In this document: in pieces, positions 11,555 through 42,177 of the stretch
Position numbering within the stretch: position 1 is the stretch's first letter
Layout: each line of letters begins with the position of its first letter
Source: a virus
IMG/VR virus record: IMGVR_UViG_3300012930_000008
Span: 1 to 42,177 of that record
DNA: 42,177 nucleotides
Strand: one strand, 5' to 3'
Made by a program: the position numbers and the translations under genes
Notes under the pieces: generated by a model
What the model saw: only the letters and a program-made list of their open reading frames with translations
What the model was told of the DNA's origin: nothing
Databases searched by the model: none

Positions 11555-11763
11555 TCCTCGCTCCCCTTATCCTGAGCCTGTCGAAGGACGATCTCGCGCC
11601 AGATCGCGGCGGCGGTCGCATCGTCAGCGTTCACGAATGTTCGCAGCGGGAAGTCGATGAAATCGTTGATCTCGTCTACCGAAAGGTCTGACACGCCAGG
11701 AAGGCCGCGAACGATCAACTCTTCCATCGCGCGCAGGCAGCGGGTGAACTCGGCGCGGGTCAT
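11551..11763 (-). CDS. hypothetical protein, 70 residues, C-terminus from a repeat
   Basis: The start ATG 11763 overlaps the stop of the pentapeptide gene. Residues MTRAEFTRCLRAMEELI... are helical. The last residues (LRQAQDKGSEE) are encoded by the word CCTGAGCCTGTCGAAGGA read on the opposite strand, a sequence I recall as a common dispersed repeat in some bacterial genomes. The C-terminus therefore appears to be replaced or extended by a host-type repeat. Confidence 0.65.
   Translation of the reverse strand: MTRAEFTRCLRAMEELIVRGLPGVSDLSVDEINDFIDFPLRTFVNADDATAAAIWREIVLRQAQDKGSEE
11571..11588. repeat. CCTGAGCCTGTCGAAGG-type dispersed repeat
   Basis: CCTGAGCCTGTCGAAGGA is the core of a repeat known to me from many environmental bacterial chromosomes, especially sphingomonads. 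There it yields recurring peptides such as RQAQD or LSLSKG when translated. It is present once here, inside the 3' end of the gene at 11551-11763. Confidence 0.55.
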
Positions 11764-12440
11764 CCTCCTGCGCTCCCTTCGGGAGCTTCGGAGGACTTCT
11801 GCCGTCCGGGCTCGCCCTGCGAAGCCCCTTGGGGCGGAGCAGGGTCCTCTGCGGCGCATGCGCGGATGTCGGCCAGTGCCGCCTCGTTCGTGGTGACGAA
11901 CTGCGGCACCGGCTTGCCGGGCCGGCTGGCGGCATAGATCAGCGCGCCGGCCGCAGCGGGGCCAATCGCGCGTTCCAGTGCCCATCCCGCCTCACCGGCG
12001 AGAGCGATGGCGAGGCCGGCGCGGCAGTGCGTCGTCTCGCACCAATGATCAGGATTGCATTTCTCATCGTCGCCGTGCCATGAATGCATTTCGAAATGCT
12101 TGGGGTCGCGCTCGATCTGGCGCAGGATCGCGGCGTCTATATGCGGCACGATCGGGATAGGCGGCAGGCCTTTGGCGCGCGACAGAACGGCGCCCGTCAG
12201 ATCGGCGTCCGTCAGATCGGCGTCCGTCAGATCGGCGCCCGTCAGATCGGCGCCCGTCAGATCGGCGCCCGTCAGAACGGCGCCCGTCAGAACGGCGCGA
12301 GACAGATCGGCGCCCTGACGGAGGGCGATCCTGACGGCGGCGCCGAGGCGGATGTCGGGCGCGGCGTTGTCGAGCGAGACGGGCAGCTCGACCGCGAGCT
12401 TGCGGGTGGACCAGCGGTAGGCGATTTCGACGGTCGACAT
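11760..12440 (-). CDS. pentapeptide-repeat protein
   Basis: 226 residues. Residues about 42-90 are tandem A(D/V)L(T/S)xx pentapeptides (RQGADLSRAVLTGAVLTGAD and on), which form a right-handed square beta-helix. A globular domain follows with HSWHGDDEKC...WCETTHCRAGLAIALAG, a segment I associate with phage proteins of unknown role. The last 35 residues are Pro/Ser/Glu-rich and coded by palindromic elements. Some pentapeptide proteins mimic DNA and inhibit gyrase, but only about nine repeats are present here, so that function is uncertain. RBS AGGAGCC precedes the start. Confidence 0.85.
   Translation of the reverse strand: MSTVEIAYRWSTRKLAVELPVSLDNAAPDIRLGAAVRIALRQGADLSRAVLTGAVLTGADLTGADLTGADLTDADLTDADLTGAVLSRAKGLPPIPIVPHIDAAILRQIERDPKHFEMHSWHGDDEKCNPDHWCETTHCRAGLAIALAGEAGWALERAIGPAAAGALIYAASRPGKPVPQFVTTNEAALADIRACAAEDPAPPQGASQGEPGRQKSSEAPEGSAGG
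11815..11844. repeat. palindromic element inside gene 3' end (copy B)
   Basis: Outer arms CCCTGC (11815-11820) and GCAGGG (11839-11844), inner arms GCCCC (11824-11828) and GGGGC (11831-11835). Its organisation matches the element at 6788-6816. A neighbouring GCTCCC/GGGAGC hairpin lies at about 11772-11786. Together they encode the low-complexity tail of the pentapeptide protein. Confidence 0.6.
12181..12315. repeat. nine tandem 15-bp units coding the pentapeptide repeats
   Basis: Units such as GTCAGATCGGCGCCC recur nine times without interruption, differing at a few positions (ATC or AAC, CGCCC or CGTCC). Near-identity at the DNA level means the array expanded recently and can change copy number by slippage or recombination. 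The array is entirely within the coding frame, so it is not a CRISPR array. Confidence 0.9.
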
Positions 12441-16144: not shown

Positions 16145-18229
16145 ATGACCGAGCAAGCCCCTACTGATGTTCCAGCAACCCTCAGTTGGGCGCTCTTCTA
16201 TCATTCTCTCGGCTGGTCGGTCATACCGGCTCATCGCCTCGCGGGCGCTTCCTGCTCCTGCCAGCTCGGCCCTGCCTGCGTCTCCCCCGGCAAGCATCCC
16301 GCCATCGCCTGGACGCCGTTCCAAACGCAACGCGCCGGGCTCGACCAGATCAAGGCATGGTTCACCGGTCCGTACCGCGAGTACGGTATCGGCATCATCA
16401 CCGGCGCCGCCTCCGGCAACCTTTTCGTCGTCGATGTCGACCAGGCGCCCGGCAAGGAGGGCGCCGACACGCTGCACTTCCTGCAAATGCACAATGACGA
16501 CTTGCCGGAAACCTGTCAGGCGATAACCGGCGGCGGCGGCCGGCACTACCTGTTCACGGCTCCCGCCGGCATACGAATCAAGACCGATCGCAACATCCTC
16601 GGACCCGGCGTCGACACAAGGGGGGAGGGCGGCTTCATCGTCGCCGCGCCGTCTCTTCACGCCAGTGGCCGCTACTACCTTTGGGACGAGCGCCACCATC
16701 CCGCCAAGCTCAAGCCGGCCGATGCGCCGCCTTGGCTCCTCGCCCTGATCGAGAGCGGCGCCGAGCGGGCTCAGCCCAATGGCGCGACCGGCGCCCATGC
16801 CAATGGCATCGACCGCACTGCCTTCGGCTTCGTCGGCGACGGGCGCGAGAAGTACATGGTGCAGGTCATTTGCGGCTGTATCGGCAGCTATGTCCGCGCC
16901 AATGGAACTCTACCGGAGCCCATCGAGCTATTCGCCGAGGCATGGCCGACCTACGAGCGCAACGTCAAGGCTCGCAGCACCAGCCTCGATGCCGATCAGC
17001 GCGGCGAGGCGCTCATGCGCCAGCGCATCGGCTACCTGCTTCACCGGGCCGCTACCGGCAAGTTCCCCGTCCTGCAACAGATCGCCGACGAAATCGCTCA
17101 AGCGGCGTTCAAGGAAGGGATTGCCGGACGCCCCCACCCCGTCGTAGAGCCGGAACAATCGTCCGGCGAATATCCTCTGCCTTTCATATGGTTCGATGCA
17201 GTGCAGCCATCCATAGATGCGATTGATTTCGTTGAAGGTATTCTCTGCACTAATCAGATGTCCGTCGTATACGGCGAGAGCAATTGCGGCAAGACATTCT
17301 TTATGACGGACCTTGCCTTTCACATCGCCACCGGCCGACGCTGGCGCGATCGCGAAGTCGACCGTGGCGGGGTCATCTATGTCGCCCTGGAAGGCAGTTT
17401 CGGGATTAAAAACCGTCTTTCCGCGCTCAAGAAACATTATGGCATGGAAGGACAGAAAATCCCTCTCGCCGTCGTCGCCACGTCCATCAACATGCTCGAT
17501 CCCAAGGCCGATACCGGCAAGCTCATCGCCCTGATAAAGCAGGCTTCCGCTGAAATCGGAATGCCCATCTTGCTCGTCGTCATCGATACCCTGGCCAGGG
17601 CCTTCGCCGGCGGCAATGAAAATGCCCCGGAAGACATGGGCGCTGTCGTCATCAATGCCGACCGGATCAGGATGGAAGCACCCACTGCCCTCGCCTTTGT
17701 CCATCATAGCGGCAAGGATCAGGCGCGCGGCGCGCGCGGTCATAATTCCTTGCGTGCCGCTACCGATACCGAGATCGAGGTCACAAGACAGGAAGGCGCC
17801 GATTTCAGCGTCGCCACCGTCGTCAAGCAGCGGGAGCTGGAGACCGGCGGCGCCTTCGCCTTCAGGCTTGAAAAGGTAGAGCTTGGAACCAACCGCCGCG
17901 GCAAGCCGGTGACCTCCTGTATCGTCAAATCCGTCGATGACAATTCTATATCCATAAAGGCAACAAGGCCGCTATCACCAAAAGAAATACGCGCCCTCGA
18001 TGTCCTTAAAAATGTCTTCGTCGAGCACTCGATCCCAGCTCCGGCCGGACACAATTTGCCCAATGTCAGGGTCGTCAAAATTGAAACATTCCGCGCCGAG
18101 CTTGGGCAGTCTGGAATTACCACGCGTGACATACCAGGGACGGAGCGAAAGCAATGGGAGAGGATTCGCGATGGTCTTGATAACAAAGGAATTATCAGGA
18201 TGTATGGGGAATGGATTTGGATAGCGTGA
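16145..18229 (+). CDS. primase-polymerase / replicative helicase fusion
   Basis: 694 residues. Residues about 10-210 are a bifunctional primase-polymerase (Prim-Pol) domain: GWSVIPAH, GKHPAI, catalytic DVD at 97-99, and GGGGRHYLF with His134. A linker leads to a RecA-like RepA/AAA_25 helicase: Walker A GESNCGKT (377-384), Walker B LLVVIDT (about 475-482) and the later HHSGK. The C-terminal part may be a small DNA-binding domain (IRALDVLKNVF...GITTRDIPG). It would unwind and prime the phage origin, and GTGACA boxes begin at its stop codon and follow it. Fusion of the two domains is common in phages and plasmids. Confidence 0.9.
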   Translation: MTEQAPTDVPATLSWALFYHSLGWSVIPAHRLAGASCSCQLGPACVSPGKHPAIAWTPFQTQRAGLDQIKAWFTGPYREYGIGIITGAASGNLFVVDVDQAPGKEGADTLHFLQMHNDDLPETCQAITGGGGRHYLFTAPAGIRIKTDRNILGPGVDTRGEGGFIVAAPSLHASGRYYLWDERHHPAKLKPADAPPWLLALIESGAERAQPNGATGAHANGIDRTAFGFVGDGREKYMVQVICGCIGSYVRANGTLPEPIELFAEAWPTYERNVKARSTSLDADQRGEALMRQRIGYLLHRAATGKFPVLQQIADEIAQAAFKEGIAGRPHPVVEPEQSSGEYPLPFIWFDAVQPSIDAIDFVEGILCTNQMSVVYGESNCGKTFFMTDLAFHIATGRRWRDREVDRGGVIYVALEGSFGIKNRLSALKKHYGMEGQKIPLAVVATSINMLDPKADTGKLIALIKQASAEIGMPILLVVIDTLARAFAGGNENAPEDMGAVVINADRIRMEAPTALAFVHHSGKDQARGARGHNSLRAATDTEIEVTRQEGADFSVATVVKQRELETGGAFAFRLEKVELGTNRRGKPVTSCIVKSVDDNSISIKATRPLSPKEIRALDVLKNVFVEHSIPAPAGHNLPNVRVVKIETFRAELGQSGITTRDIPGTERKQWERIRDGLDNKGIIRMYGEWIWIA

Positions 18230-18436
18230 CACCTAATGTCACGGCGCGTGACATAGCGTGACATCGCCATTTTCGTAAAATCAGAGATAAAGGGACACCA
18301 TGTGACATTGGGCGTGACATCAAAAAAATCAATGAAATCAATGATCGTGACATAGCGTGACATAGCGTGACATCGGCCAATGTCACCACCGTGACATCCG
18401 GGATATATCTAAAGATATATTCCCCCGGAATGTCAC
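18226..18436. repeat. GTGACA box cluster, candidate replication origin (iterons)
   Basis: GTGACA occurs at 18226, 18248, 18258, 18302, 18314, 18347, 18357, 18367 and 18391. Its complement TGTCAC occurs at 18237, 18381 and 18431. Several share the longer core AGCGTGACAT and are spaced exactly 10 bp (18248/18258; 18347/18357/18367), which places them on one face of the helix. An A/T-rich stretch of about 26 bp (18321-18346, with two AATCAATGA-like words) lies among them. Iterons plus an AT-rich region beside the helicase gene fit an origin; a multi-site operator is the alternative. One further GTGACA is at 18126 inside the helicase gene. Confidence 0.8.
18391..18436. repeat. 46-bp near-perfect palindrome with AT core
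   Basis: The centre ATATATCT-AA-AGATATAT (18403-18420) is flanked by GTGACATCCGGG on the left and the inverted CCCGGAATGTCAC, with additional C residues, on the right. Apart from a few inserted bases the whole 46 bp is self-complementary, and its tips are GTGACA boxes. It could extrude as a cruciform, melt as an unwinding element, or bind a dimer. It ends 34 bp before the next gene. Confidence 0.8.
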
Positions 18437-18470
18437 GGATCGAGATGGCGGGCTTTTTAGGAAAAACACC

Positions 18471-19013
18471 ATGACTGTCACCATCTCCCGCACAGCCGCC
18501 CAAGTCGATCGCATTCAGGCCCTCGTCGAGCACGTCGACATAACCGCTCGGGAAATGGATACGAAGTGGGGCGTCGGTCGCCTTCGCCTCCTCGTCCCCC
18601 CCGACCTGCGCGAGCGATGGGACCGCCAAGCCGTCGCCTGGGACCATGCCATCTGGCATGGCGACCCGCACGAGGTCGACGCCCTCTCGGCCGCCATGAT
18701 CCGCGGCTACCGCGTCCTCGACGCAGCCGCGCTAGAGGCCGGCCAAGCGCCGCTGAGCCCGGTCGTCTGGGAAGTGGCACTCGGGGATGGTAAGGTCGCC
18801 GCCATGGTCCAGACGCCCCAGGACGCTCACGCAATCGCCATCTCAGGCCGTTATCTCGAAATCTGGACCCTTGACGAGGTCGCCCGCCTCATCGCCGCCT
18901 TCCCCGAGATCGCCCAAGCCAAGCAAATCTTTCCCGGCGCCCGCGTTCAAGCCGCCCGCCGATCGGACCTCGATTGGAAAACCGGCGACCCGATCCAGGA
19001 TATTTTCGCTTGA
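18471..19013 (+). CDS. conserved hypothetical protein, 180 residues
   Basis: MTVTISRTAAQVDRIQALVE... is helical with a Trp-rich middle (LRERWDRQAVAWDHAIWHGD) and an EIWTLDEVARLIAAFPEIAQ segment near the end. It stands between the replication module and terminase, where rhizobial-type phages often have an uncharacterised gene. A packaging or replication accessory role is possible. No motif is diagnostic. The weak ribosome site is TAGGAAA. Confidence 0.75.
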   Translation: MTVTISRTAAQVDRIQALVEHVDITAREMDTKWGVGRLRLLVPPDLRERWDRQAVAWDHAIWHGDPHEVDALSAAMIRGYRVLDAAALEAGQAPLSPVVWEVALGDGKVAAMVQTPQDAHAIAISGRYLEIWTLDEVARLIAAFPEIAQAKQIFPGARVQAARRSDLDWKTGDPIQDIFA

Positions 19014-19263: not shown

Positions 19264-19593
19264 ATGAAATTCGAACCTGGGAAAAGCGGCAATCCAGGCG
19301 GCAGACCAAAAATTCCCCCCGAAATCAAGGAACTCGTCGCCGAAGCAACGCCCGCAGCAATGAGAAAGATTATCAGGCTTGTTGCCAGCAAAGATGAGAG
19401 AGTTGCTCTGGCCGCAGCCCAATATGTCGCCGATCGACATCTCGGCAGACCTTCCCAACACATAGACGCCGATGTCCGACACGACAGCCTCCCAGCGCTT
19501 CTCGCCGGAATCCTTGGCGGCACGCAAGACGCTGAGACGTTGGCACCTCGACCCACTGGCCTTCGTGACCGAGGCGTTGCAGGCTCAGCCTGA
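19264..19593 (+). CDS. terS: small terminase subunit (DUF5681-like)
   Basis: 109 residues, RBS AGGAAG. The N-terminus KFEPGKSGNPGGRPK is the DUF5681-type opening seen in many alphaproteobacterial phage terminase small subunits. It is followed by a helical DNA-binding/oligomerisation region (ELVAEATPAAMRKIIRLVAS...ALAAAQYVADRHLG). It would recognise phage DNA and load the large subunit. The last 122 bases overlap the start of the large subunit in another frame, an unusually long overlap. Name assigned by signature and position. Confidence 0.75.
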   Translation: MKFEPGKSGNPGGRPKIPPEIKELVAEATPAAMRKIIRLVASKDERVALAAAQYVADRHLGRPSQHIDADVRHDSLPALLAGILGGTQDAETLAPRPTGLRDRGVAGSA

Positions 19594-20905
19594 GCCTTGG
19601 CAAGCCGACTCGCTGCGCGCCCTCGCGATATCAGACCGCCTTTCCATCCGCGCCGGCCACGGCGTCGGCAAAACCACCGATCTCGCCTGGATCGTCCTCT
19701 GGTTCATGTGCACGCGCGTGCCGTTTAAGGTGCCGATCGTCGCCAACTCCCAAGACCAGCTGCGCGATGTCGTGTGGCCGGAAATCCGCAAGTGGCATGG
19801 CCGCCTGCCGGAGGCGCTGCGCGGCGAGCTGCAAATCGATGCCGAGCGCGTCTACATGACCGCCAAGCCGGAATGCTTCGCCGTCGCCCGAACCGCCTCC
19901 AAGGACAACCCCGAAGCTCTCCAAGGCTTCCACGAGGACAACCTCCTCTTCGTCGTCGAGGAGGCGTCCGGCATCCCCGACATCGTCTTCGAGGTCGGTG
20001 CCGGCTCGATGTCGACGCTGGGCGCCAAAATGGTGCTGTTTGCCAATCCGACGCGCTCGAGCGGCTTCTTCTATGACACCCACCACGGCATGCGTGACCG
20101 CTGGTCCACCATGCGCGTCAATTCTGAGGACGTGCCGCGCGCGCAAGGGCACATCGACGATATCGCCGCGAAATACGGCAAGGACAGCAATGCTTACCGT
20201 GTCCGCGTGCTCGGCGAATTCCCCGATACCGAGGACGATGCGGTTATTCCGCTGCATCTTTGCGAGGCCGCGGCGCGCCGCAAGGTGGCGGCAACGGATT
20301 ACCGGCCGGTGTGGGGCGTCGATGTCGCGCGCTTCGGCGATGATCGCAGCGCGCTCGCCAAGCGGCAGGGGAATACTCTGCTCGAGCCGGTGCGCGCGTG
20401 GCACGGCAAGGACACCATGCAACTCACCGGCCTCATCGTCGAGGAATGGAAGCTGACTCATGAGCTCGACCGGCCGTCCGAAATACTCGTGGATGTCATC
20501 GGGTTGGGTGCTGGCGTTGTCGATCGCCTGGGCGAGCTTGGTCTTCCTGTGCGGGGCGTTAACGTCGGCGAGGCCGCTGCTATATCCGATCGTTTCATGC
20601 GTCTTCGCGATGAGCTTTGGTTTCGCGCTCGCGATTGGCTGGCTGGTGGCAGTTCGGTATTACCGCAAGATGATCAGGCGCTCATCGCTGAGCTGAGCGC
20701 CCCGAAATACCGCATCGAATCGACCGGCAAGGTCAAGGTCGAGGCGAAGGACGAGATGAAGAAACGCGGCCATCGCTCGCCCGATCTCGCCGATGCGTTC
20801 TGCCTCACCTTCGCCGGCGGGCTCGACCGCAAGCCGGACGAGATGGTCGACAAGTATCGCCGCAAGCTCTACGGCGGCAAGCGGCGCTCGGCGTGGGCCG
20901 CGTGA
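19472..20905 (+). CDS. terL: terminase large subunit
   Basis: 477 residues. ATPase: Walker A GHGVGKTT (62-69), Walker B LLFVVEEAS (158-165) with catalytic Glu. Nuclease: Asp284 in WGVDVARFGDD, Asp341 in ILVDVIG, Asp438/441 in SPDLADAF. This is the DNA-packaging motor and headful or cos nuclease acting at the portal. The start overlaps terS by 122 bases, and no later ATG keeps the N-terminal helices, so the overlap seems real. The stop overlaps the GTG of the next gene. The mode of packaging cannot be read directly. Confidence 0.95.
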   Translation: MSDTTASQRFSPESLAARKTLRRWHLDPLAFVTEALQAQPEPWQADSLRALAISDRLSIRAGHGVGKTTDLAWIVLWFMCTRVPFKVPIVANSQDQLRDVVWPEIRKWHGRLPEALRGELQIDAERVYMTAKPECFAVARTASKDNPEALQGFHEDNLLFVVEEASGIPDIVFEVGAGSMSTLGAKMVLFANPTRSSGFFYDTHHGMRDRWSTMRVNSEDVPRAQGHIDDIAAKYGKDSNAYRVRVLGEFPDTEDDAVIPLHLCEAAARRKVAATDYRPVWGVDVARFGDDRSALAKRQGNTLLEPVRAWHGKDTMQLTGLIVEEWKLTHELDRPSEILVDVIGLGAGVVDRLGELGLPVRGVNVGEAAAISDRFMRLRDELWFRARDWLAGGSSVLPQDDQALIAELSAPKYRIESTGKVKVEAKDEMKKRGHRSPDLADAFCLTFAGGLDRKPDEMVDKYRRKLYGGKRRSAWAA

Positions 20906-24530: not shown

Positions 24531-26377
24531 ATGGCAGGCACATCTTATGGGGTTGATTAATTAGCCCCATGCGCAGTAAGATGGCATATGGTCAAAACGT
24601 GCGCTCGATGCGGGATCGTTGCCGAGATGGGCAAGGGGTCTCGTTGCTACTGTCAGCCCTGCACTCTGGAATATCAGCGCGAGTATCGCGCGGCGAACAA
24701 GGAGCGGCTGAAAGAGTACTGGCGTCTGAAGAATTTGCGCGACCGCGAAAATCCAGCGTGGACCACGAAAGAGCGAAAGCGTGGCCGCGATTACTGGCAG
24801 AAGGTCAGGCACGAAGCGATCATGGCGTATGGCGGGTATATTTGCGCTTGTTGTGGCGAGACGGAACCGAGGTTTCTGACCCTGGATCACATGAACAACG
24901 ACGGTGCCAATCACCGGCGTTCGCTTGGGTGGACAATCAGCAACGGACGAGGCTGCGGCGGTGCCATGCTGAATCATCTGAGACACACCGGGTATCCGCC
25001 CGGCTATCAGATTCTCTGCATGAACTGCAATTTCGGGAAGGCTCACAACGGCGGCGTTTGCCCACATATTACGGCGCATGCAAACCGCGTGAACTCAGGG
25101 GAAGCCCAGACCGGGTAATCCTGAACCGAGCCCAGCAATGGGAAGGCGCAACGACTATCCCTTCGGGGAGTACGGCCAAGCGGCCGGAAGCGCGCGGGGT
25201 CCTTCATCGGGACCATGATATAGTCTGCTCTGCATGGGAACATGCAGCAGCCCGCAAGGGCGGTCGGGAAAGTAGCGAATCCCGGCGAACGCAAGGCAAC
25301 AACGCCCTCGCCGTGAAGGCCTGGGCAAAGAAGCTGTTCGTCGAGGCGCTCAAGCAAACCCGATACGAGCAGTTCAAGGGCACCACCGGGACCGACAGCC
25401 TGATCACCCTGAAGACCGAGACCTCGAAGGGTCCGGGCGACCGCGTCACCATCGGGCTGCGCATGCAGCTCGTCGGCACCGGCGTGCAGGGCGATGCGAC
25501 GCTGGAGGGCCAGGAAGAGGCGCTCATCACCTATTCCGACAATCTCTTCATCGATCAGCTTCGTCACGCCGTGCGGTCGAGCGGCAAGATGTCGGAGCAG
25601 CGCGTGCCGTTCGAGGTCCGCGACGAGGCGCGAGCGGGCTTGCAAGACTGGTGGGCCGACCGCATCGATTGCTCGATGTTCAACCAGATCGCCGGCGCGA
25701 CGACGCAGCAGACACAGGCGAACGCGACGCAGAGCACCTCGATCTCGACGGCGTTCTCGGGCAACCAGGCGGCCATCGCGCCGACCGCTACGACCAACCT
25801 GATCATCTGCGACCAGAACGGCGGCAACACCACCGAGGCATCCCTCTCGGCGACCTTCATCATGAACCTGAAGGATGTCGACCGGGTCGTCGCCAAGGCG
25901 AAGACGGCGACGCCGGCGATCCGGCCACTGACGGTGAACGGGGACAAGATGTACGTCCTCTTCATCCACCCGAATCAGACGTACCAGTTTCGCACCAATA
26001 CCAACACGGGGCAGTGGATCGACATTCAGAAGGCGGTGCTGACCGGCGGCCGGATCGCCGATAACCCGATCATCACCGGGCTCATCGGCGTCTACAACAA
26101 TTGCGTCCTCGTCGAGGATGCGCGTGTGCCCTACGTCGCGTCTTCGGTGACCTCGTCGACCAACTACCGCCGCGGCATCTTCTGCGGCGCCCAGGCGGCG
26201 GCGATCGGCTTCGGGCGAGGGGGAGGCGCCGACAACATGTCATGGGTCGAGGAGCTTTTCGACTACGGCAATCAGCTCGGCGTCATGGCCGGGGCGATTT
26301 TCGGCATCAAGAAGCTGGTCTTCAACTCGGCCGACTTCGGGACGATCGTGATGTCGTCCTACGCGCCGGCATTGTAA
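24531..26377 (+). CDS. major capsid protein (N4-gp56/P22-coat type), interrupted by a group I intron
   Basis: Exons 24531-24553 and 25297-26377 join to 1104 nt, 367 residues, beginning MAGTSYGVNNALAVKAWAKK. The N4-gp56 family signature follows: KLFVEALKQTRYEQFKG, a beta-rich GDRVTIGLRMQLVG.G, LEGQEEALITYSDNLFIDQL and RDEARAGLQDWWADRIDC. The T=7-type HK97-fold coat would assemble on the scaffold. Unspliced RNA reads only nine codons before TAA (24558-24560). Exon 2 has no plausible own start with a ribosome site. The frame running open from 24569 through the intron into exon 2 encodes implausible sequence and is not the gene. Confidence 0.9.
24554..25296 (+). ncRNA. group I self-splicing intron (743 nt) in the capsid gene
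   Basis: P1: exon AUGGGGU (24547-24553) pairs with intron GCCCCAU (24564-24570), and the splice-site U forms the required U-G wobble with G24564. P7: GACTA (25153-25157) pairs with TAGTC (25221-25225), the latter in the hallmark context GATATAGTC. P9-type hairpins: TGCATG-GGAA-CATGCA (25231-25246), GCCC-GCAA-GGGC (25250-25261), both with GNRA-type loops, and CGGGA/TCCCG (25265-25284). The terminal omega G is 25296. Exact removal restores a sensible capsid N-terminus in frame. Confidence 0.9.
24588..25118 (+). CDS. HNH homing endonuclease encoded in the intron
   Basis: 176 residues, wholly inside the intron, between P1 and the P7-P9 core. The N-terminal four-Cys knuckle (CARC at 5-8, CQPC at 22-25) is followed by a basic helical linker rich in Arg/Lys/Tyr. 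The catalytic domain has CACCGE (86-91), LDHMNNDGANHR with Asp100-His101 and His109, GYPPGYQ, then LCMNCNFGKAH with C144, C147, N148 and H153: an HNH beta-beta-alpha metal fold. It should cut intron-less capsid genes to spread the intron. The ribosome site is weak. All key residues appear intact. Confidence 0.9.
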   Translation: MVKTCARCGIVAEMGKGSRCYCQPCTLEYQREYRAANKERLKEYWRLKNLRDRENPAWTTKERKRGRDYWQKVRHEAIMAYGGYICACCGETEPRFLTLDHMNNDGANHRRSLGWTISNGRGCGGAMLNHLRHTGYPPGYQILCMNCNFGKAHNGGVCPHITAHANRVNSGEAQTG

Positions 26378-41422: not shown

Positions 41423-42175
41423 ATGACCGTTCCTCTCATCAAATTGACGATGCCGGCGGTCATCAGCGTCGTCGCGGGCTGGGACGGCGCGGAAATCTGG
41501 CTCGACTGCGAGAATGGCGATGCCAATGTGGCACTTCCGCCGGCCAGCACGCTGCCGGCCGGCTGGCGCTGCCGTTTCCGCAAGAGCGATGATTTCGCCT
41601 TCGTCATGGCGTTCCGCGTCCAGGGCACCGATCGGCTCAACCGCTTCTACGGCGCAACCCACCCCTACGGCATCATCTGCCCGATGCCGCAGGATGTCGT
41701 CGAGTTGACCTGCGACGGCGTCGGCGACTGGAGCCTCGCCGAGCTGACGCACCACACCAACGTGCCGCGCTCGCAGCGCACCATTGCCGTGCCGGCCTTC
41801 CAGTGTACGCCGCGCAGCCATCGCGAGATCGTTTACGGCAATGTGACGCTCGCCGGCGGAAATATTCAGGTCTCGCTCGATCCAACGGCGAATTGGTGCC
41901 CACCGGCGCCGGCCGGAACGAATGCCAACGGCGGCGATTATCTCTCCTGCGTCGTCTGGTTCATGAAGGTGGACGCGGGTACCGGACCAATGGTGATCTG
42001 TCCGGCGCCGGGCGAGTTCATCAACCCGTCGAATGATCCGCTGGTCAATCCGGGCTACAACCGGGGATATTTCTATCTCCTCAAGCAATGGGACGCGATG
42101 ATGCTGTATATTACGGCGGGCGGCGGCTTGTTCGCGCTCAACTATACGCGGGCCAGCATGATGCCGGTGCCGTAA
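41423..42175 (+). CDS. virion structural (tail) protein, 250 residues
   Basis: RBS AAGGAG. A beta-rich protein (SVVAGWDGAEIWLDCENGD, VIGC-free core, REIVYGNVTLAGGNIQVSLD) with an aromatic C-terminus (YFYLLKQWDAMMLYITAGGG). It sits between tail fibre and the signal-peptide proteins across the circle joint. It resembles uncharacterised proteins following fibres in related phages; a receptor-binding or fibre-tip role is possible. The last 119 bases before the stop-end are also present at the start of the window. Confidence 0.75.
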   Translation: MTVPLIKLTMPAVISVVAGWDGAEIWLDCENGDANVALPPASTLPAGWRCRFRKSDDFAFVMAFRVQGTDRLNRFYGATHPYGIICPMPQDVVELTCDGVGDWSLAELTHHTNVPRSQRTIAVPAFQCTPRSHREIVYGNVTLAGGNIQVSLDPTANWCPPAPAGTNANGGDYLSCVVWFMKVDAGTGPMVICPAPGEFINPSNDPLVNPGYNRGYFYLLKQWDAMMLYITAGGGLFALNYTRASMMPVP

Positions 42176-42177
42176 TA
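42055..42177. repeat. terminal direct repeat, right copy
   Basis: Exact copy of bases 1-123. It includes the last 39 codons and stop of the final gene. Collapsing it yields a circle of 42,054 bp in which all virion and lysis genes are contiguous. Confidence 0.95.

Follow-up and report, generated by a model that had tools for sequence, protein, structure and literature searches.

The window analysed here is the whole 42,177-nucleotide stretch of virus record IMGVR_UViG_3300012930_000008. Its 123-bp direct terminal repeat (1-123 and 42055-42177) shows that the record is a closed circular genome of about 42,054 bp written with an overlap. The locus under study comprises a primase-helicase gene, an array of short boxes directly behind it and the gene that follows. 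The features are:

16145 to 18229, plus strand: primase-helicase gene, 694 aa, with a Prim-Pol domain, a RepA-type helicase core and a predicted C-terminal winged helix; proposed initiator
17978 to 18223, plus strand: predicted CRP-like winged helix at the C-terminus of the enzyme (residues 612-693), which is proposed to bind the boxes
18126 to 18131, plus strand: lone extra box in the helicase gene, 100 bp upstream of the array
18140 to 18184, plus strand: predicted recognition helix, residues 666-680, with codons 668-669 at 18146-18151
18226 to 18436, no strand assigned: iteron array of 12 GTGACA boxes, consensus CGTGACAT; proposed core of the replication origin
18315 to 18354, no strand assigned: A/T-rich stretch within the array (73% A+T) with the direct repeat AAATCAATG; candidate unwinding element
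18389 to 18438, no strand assigned: inverted box pair (18391 plus, 18431 minus) around an A/T-rich palindrome; strong hairpin
18471 to 19013, plus strand: next gene, 180 aa, without a family match; a recurrent neighbour that is dispensable for the presence of the array and is not favoured as its binder

Exactly 12 GTGACA/TGTCAC boxes were counted between 18226 and 18436, nine on the plus strand (starting at 18226, 18248, 18258, 18302, 18314, 18347, 18357, 18367 and 18391) and three on the minus strand (18237, 18381 and 18431). Two more copies flanked the array, one at 18126 within the helicase gene and the other at 18476, at the beginning of the gene that follows. The boxes were mostly 10-12 bp apart; four start-to-start spacings were exactly 10 bp and others were 11, 11, 12 and 14 bp, and TRF reported a 10-bp unit CGTGACATAG repeated 2.8 times at 18346-18373, the tightest part of the array. 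The window was shuffled 100 times (first order), and in these sequences the highest count of any hexamer per 211 bp was 7, compared to the 12 observed. Outside the array GTGACA occurred nine times in the window, which was not above chance expectation. The A/T-rich stretch was the joint A/T-richest 40 bp of a genome with 62% GC, and the array held the A/T-richest or nearly A/T-richest 40 bp in all four genomes tested. The stop codon of the helicase gene (TGA, 18227-18229) sits inside the first box. The locus thus combines several short direct repeats, near-helical spacing and an adjacent A/T-rich region, as expected of iteron origins in general. A first-pass annotation of this DNA had claimed twelve boxes, several of them exactly 10 bp apart, at a density beyond chance, around an A/T-rich segment and directly after the primase-helicase gene, and each of these claims was borne out by the recount.

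The hairpin at 18389-18438 had a DNA folding energy of -18.3 kcal/mol (z -5.8). A search for intrinsic terminators at the array found no T-tract site, and a hairpin lacking a T tract is not a typical terminator. An Rfam search gave no match at the array. Cumulative GC skew, which had been suggested as a check on the origin, was uninformative: the minimum of the window (20230) lay 1.9 kb from the array, but in three other closed genomes it lay 4.5-13.8 kb away, and skew was dropped as an origin indicator.

The primase-helicase matched PF09250 (Prim-Pol, E 2.5e-33) and PF13481 (AAA_25, E 3.3e-33), with the Prim-Pol domain at residues 16-197 and the RepA-type helicase core at about residues 348-595. 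The best-covered solved structure for the core was RSF1010 RepA (1g8y, TMt 0.75), and the core has the RSF1010-type RepA hexameric helicase fold. In a full-protein AlphaFold model built from 38 relatives (mean pLDDT 84), the C-terminal domain was predicted as helix-strand-helix-helix-strand-strand, separate from the helicase core; modelled alone, it reached a pLDDT of 83.7. When this domain was submitted to Foldseek by itself, the best PDB matches were to the half of CRP/CAP proteins that binds DNA (probability 0.99-1.0, E about 0.01-0.05). No Pfam family model matched the domain and a sequence-profile search of the PDB with it returned nothing credible, so that the resemblance to CRP rests on fold comparison. 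The domain is probably a CRP-like winged helix, with a high Foldseek probability and a weak E-value. The residue register was set by the CRP pattern LEDQNLI, which we take to correspond to LDNKGII in the window protein; in this by-eye alignment the base-contacting R180, E181 and R185 of CRP fall on R668, K669 and R673.

Relatives of the primase-helicase were found in 79 viral contigs, and almost all of them carried an array built on one short word (hereafter the box word) directly after the helicase stop codon. Of 75 loci, a set that includes near-copies, 58 had at least eight copies of one hexamer in the 300 bp that follow the stop codon, against two of 1729 control windows, which were the other 300-bp windows of the same loci. 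After further searches, near-copies were collapsed at 90% identity; of the resulting 85 non-redundant loci from phages and prophages, 68 presented at least six copies of one word and 17 had no clear array. The search for arrays in related phages that the first-pass annotation had proposed thus showed most relatives to have a similar array in the corresponding position, and the annotation's reading of the locus as an iteron origin gained comparative support: it is the helicase gene that the arrays accompany, rather than the terminase or the gene that follows. The box word varied between lineages, and over 20 were found, including GTGACA, GGGACA, CGGACA, CAGACA, CATACA, GTAACA, GCAACA, CTACAA, GCACCG and AGGGTA; in most of them ACA formed the second half and the preceding three letters varied. 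Same-strand neighbouring boxes of the relatives were 9-12 bp apart in 182 of 307 cases. Isolated phages shared this architecture: the Rhizobium phages 16-3 and RHph_X2_25 carried GTGACA arrays of about 16 boxes with a protein only about 30% identical to that of the window, and the Roseobacter phages CRP-823 and CRP-811 carried CTACAA arrays of 11 boxes. Four elements from a plasmid database that encode a related helicase also had arrays right after the gene (GCAACA, GCGGCA, CGGACA and GGGACA). One Klebsiella plasmid record with a GCGGCA array directly after a RepA-type helicase gene (CP018459, 16,971 bp) also encoded an integrase and a capsid protein and is probably a phage satellite (L260).

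An exact search of viral contigs for CGTGACATAGCGTGACAT gave six matches. One of them (L085) was a true relative with an array, and four (L081, L082, L084 and L086) seem to be brief coincidental matches or to belong to different contexts. Positions 182-350 of contig L083 (IMGVR_UViG_3300028887_000018) held a dense array of 11 CGTGACAT boxes; this contig appears recoded, its sole AAA_25 match having five in-frame TGA codons. This array is real but has no nearby gene under the standard code, and it places the window's box in a very different phage.

The variety of box words allowed the letters of the box, taken from the DNA alone, to be compared with about 347 protein columns in 49-55 non-redundant proteins; an earlier run with 19 representatives had been too small. 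Residue 668 ranked first of 347 columns for base 1 of the box (z 12.5 and 15.3) and residue 669 was the first or second column for base 2 (z 10.9 and 11.7), with high ranks for residues 671 and 672 as well. K or R at 669 went with G at base 2 (two-by-two counts 33, 2, 2 and 12; Fisher 8e-8), and Q at 668 with C at base 1 (12, 0, 5 and 32; Fisher 7e-8). The window protein is one of the two exceptions to the K/R669-G rule, having K669 and T at base 2. Since shared ancestry could produce such covariation, three kinship checks were run. When the box words were placed on a helicase-core tree from which the C-terminal domain had been left out, the word had to change 22 times or more and hardly clustered; the box word does not follow helicase phylogeny but tracks the C-terminal domain. 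With the phage 16-3 clade removed, residue 668 remained the top-ranked column for base 1, and residue 669 came second for base 2. Among disjoint pairs of near neighbours differing in base 1, the residue had changed as predicted in 12, was unchanged in four and had changed in the opposite direction in none; for base 2 the figures were 11, 3 and 0. A tree-based pair test restricted to well-supported branches, which had little power, comprised seven and four pairs and was not significant (median p 0.06 and 0.25), with none or almost none of the pairs in the opposite direction. The rules were partly predictive: in three ACA-type plasmid elements outside the rule-making set, five of six base letters were as expected. 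Altogether, these comparisons suggest that the C-terminal domain of the helicase reads the boxes, residues 668 and 669 tracking bases 1 and 2, respectively.

The pattern of similarity between close relatives pointed to how the box word may change. In the 16-3 clade, the helicase core was about 75-97% identical per segment while the C-terminal domain was only about 29-47% identical. Between members with different words (L110/L111, L110/L106, L087/L109 and L106/L143), DNA similarity often ended 286-320 bp before the stop codon, which is the start of the C-terminal domain, and resumed past the array. The C-terminal domain and the array are thus often exchanged jointly, the helicase core staying about 90% identical. 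Other pairs remained alignable despite a word change (GTGACA in L087 and GGGACA in L104; GTAACA in L002 and GCAACA in L008), and a concerted change of many boxes would therefore be needed. As judged from these alignments, the C-terminal domain and its adjoining array probably evolve as a single specificity cassette.

Several other explanations of the array were considered. The boxes could be operators at which the C-terminal domain of the helicase, or another regulator, controls the helicase operon or the downstream genes and not the start of replication. The modelled winged helix does resemble the regulator domain of CRP/FNR, initiators commonly autoregulate at their own iterons, and one weak promoter-like match (18302-18329, 9/12) lies over a box. 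However, promoter-like matches occurred only at chance level, the position of the arrays is 3' to the helicase gene, and about ten boxes in both orientations around an A/T-rich stretch are unlike simple operators; binding by a domain linked to a helicase would also point to replication, and we regard this explanation as unlikely. It is more improbable still that the locus works like the origins of pRN1 and Bordetella phage BIP-1, with the stem-loop at 18389-18438 essential and the boxes secondary. A strong hairpin does follow the Prim-Pol helicase gene, pRN1 requires a stem-loop at the corresponding place and BIP-1 has a similar one (PMC4234260), and stable hairpins were also present in most of the 26 relatives tested. 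Yet the hairpins of the relatives may simply result from inverted boxes in the arrays, pRN1 has no iterons (PMC4234260), and in the present loci it is the boxes that are conserved, with letters that follow the protein.

As to which protein binds the array, the first-pass annotation had named the C-terminus of the primase-helicase or the product of the next gene, and the former is favoured by the modelled winged helix and by the covariation of its recognition-helix residues with the box letters. The next gene would be the initiator if its product bound the array and then loaded the primase-helicase, in the way that RSF1010 RepC acts for RepA. Its relatives did follow the array in several phages, including those of Roseobacter, but 58 of the 68 array loci had no detectable homologue there and the box letters are tracked by the helicase's own C-terminal residues; the gene was therefore set aside as a general binder, and we consider this role very unlikely. 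Relatives of the next gene were found after the array in 10 of the 68 array loci and also in 5 of the 17 loci without a clear array; homologues sharing the motif WGV..L...V lay right after the array in several lineages (L033, L089, L040 and L012). Finally, the array could serve in packaging (as a pac site) or in partition and stand between the replication and terminase genes by coincidence; the large terminase gene of the window (19472-20905) is about 1 kb downstream. Roseobacter phages, Rhizobium phages and plasmid-like elements nevertheless keep the array with the helicase, while the downstream neighbours differ and the terminase lies kilobases away; moreover, the word covaries with the C-terminus of the helicase, which leaves a packaging or partition site scarcely credible.

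SaPI Rep, Cch2 and P4 alpha provide precedents both for iteron origins next to the gene of the initiator and for origin-binding domains at the C-terminus. SaPI Rep is an AAA+ protein, and a SaPI Rep-family initiator was ruled out here, the helicase matching AAA_25 and RSF1010 RepA. The repeats of P4 alpha presumably do not lie in a single array right after the gene; membership of its family was also rejected, the primase of the window being Prim-Pol (PF09250) and not Toprim, with a C-terminal winged helix present. The arrangement of SaPI Rep (with SCCmec Cch2), a short-iteron origin directly 3' of the helicase gene and read by the C-terminal domain of the helicase (PMC7581432), is nonetheless similar, and the iterons of the window likewise lie directly 3' of the helicase gene. 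In contrast to SaPI Rep, the phage has a RepA/RecA-type (SF4) helicase core fused to Prim-Pol, many more boxes, a putative CRP-like winged helix and a box that changes quickly between relatives. P4 alpha of satellite phage P4 (ori1/crr) likewise combines several functions in one primase-helicase and binds origin repeats through a C-terminal winged helix, but its primase is of the bacterial (Toprim) type (PMC4234260) and its helicase belongs to a different class. ORF904 of pRN1 and the BIP-1 protein share Prim-Pol, helicase and C-terminal winged helix with a cis element just 3', but have an SF3 helicase and a stem-loop element without iterons; for ORF904, specific binding could not be demonstrated (PMC4234260). 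The phage locus was not assigned to this type: although a stem-loop exists, the helicase is RecA-type and the iteron array is clear. RSF1010, whose RepA comes closest among solved helicases in terms of structure coverage, has an iteron origin too, but uses three separate proteins (RepA, RepB' and RepC), RepC binding the iterons and melting the origin for RepA, whereas here recognition appears fused to the helicase. No RepC-like protein was found among eight scanned proteins, mostly encoded around the array. For PrimPol families with a C-terminal winged helix (PolpTN2, and PrimQH with RepA-type helicases), origin recognition has been proposed; in the parts of that account available, the proposal of Kazlauskas et al. 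rests on domain content, with neither an origin sequence nor a specificity determinant (PMC5862659).

Taken together, the array is very probably the replication start site of the phage, and we hold it highly likely that this origin is recognised by the phage's own primase-helicase. The best reading is a self-recognised iteron origin in the style of SaPI Rep and P4 alpha, here with a helicase of the RecA fold (SF4). That the enzyme binds the array, opens the DNA, loads the helicase and starts replication at this site is inferred from the computed features and by analogy to SaPI Rep, to SCCmec Cch2 and to P4 alpha. The CRP-like winged helix of the Prim-Pol/RepA-type enzyme would bind GTGACA boxes about one helical turn apart, so that the winged helices would occupy boxes along one face of the DNA helix and several enzyme subunits would gather side by side next to the A/T-rich stretch. 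The duplex could then open at this stretch, the RecA-fold (SF4) helicase ring would load by closing on one strand, and the Prim-Pol domain would prime. Confidence is lowest for the final steps, since a RecA-fold helicase commonly depends on a loader, just as RSF1010 RepA depends on RepC.

How the ring is delivered to the origin is a central question for RecA-fold replicative helicases, and the usual answer is separate initiators and loaders; in this phage recognition, unwinding and priming appear combined in one protein beside its own origin. The sequence evidence backs an earlier suggestion (PMC5862659) that PrimPol proteins read origins through their C-terminal winged helices. In a literature search that reached few subscription papers, we did not find this class of arrays on SF4 helicases, the many box words or the correspondence of residues to bases described. 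A wider proposal, in which our confidence falls a little short of even, is that phages, prophages and plasmid-like elements forming a large group share a self-loading helicase of the SF4 (RepA) type, fused to a CRP-like winged helix that reads the adjacent array by a residue-to-base code (668 to base 1, 669 to base 2), and that specificity diversifies very fast by joint cassette exchange or by concerted change of the boxes, perhaps avoiding cross-talk between co-resident replicons. The natural set of more than 20 words with matching changes in the recognition helix makes origin specificity directly testable, and the arrays offer a simple route to origins in uncultured phages.

Two further features were observed elsewhere in the window. 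A group I intron (Rfam RF00028, 54.9 bits) was found at 25004-25247 on the plus strand, just before the capsid domain of the open reading frame 24569-26377; the frame stays open across the intron model, and the true start of the capsid gene and the splicing are uncertain. On the minus strand, a 15-bp tandem repeat of 9.5 copies (12174-12315) corresponded to a pentapeptide-repeat stretch in the open reading frame 11760-12440 of the same strand.
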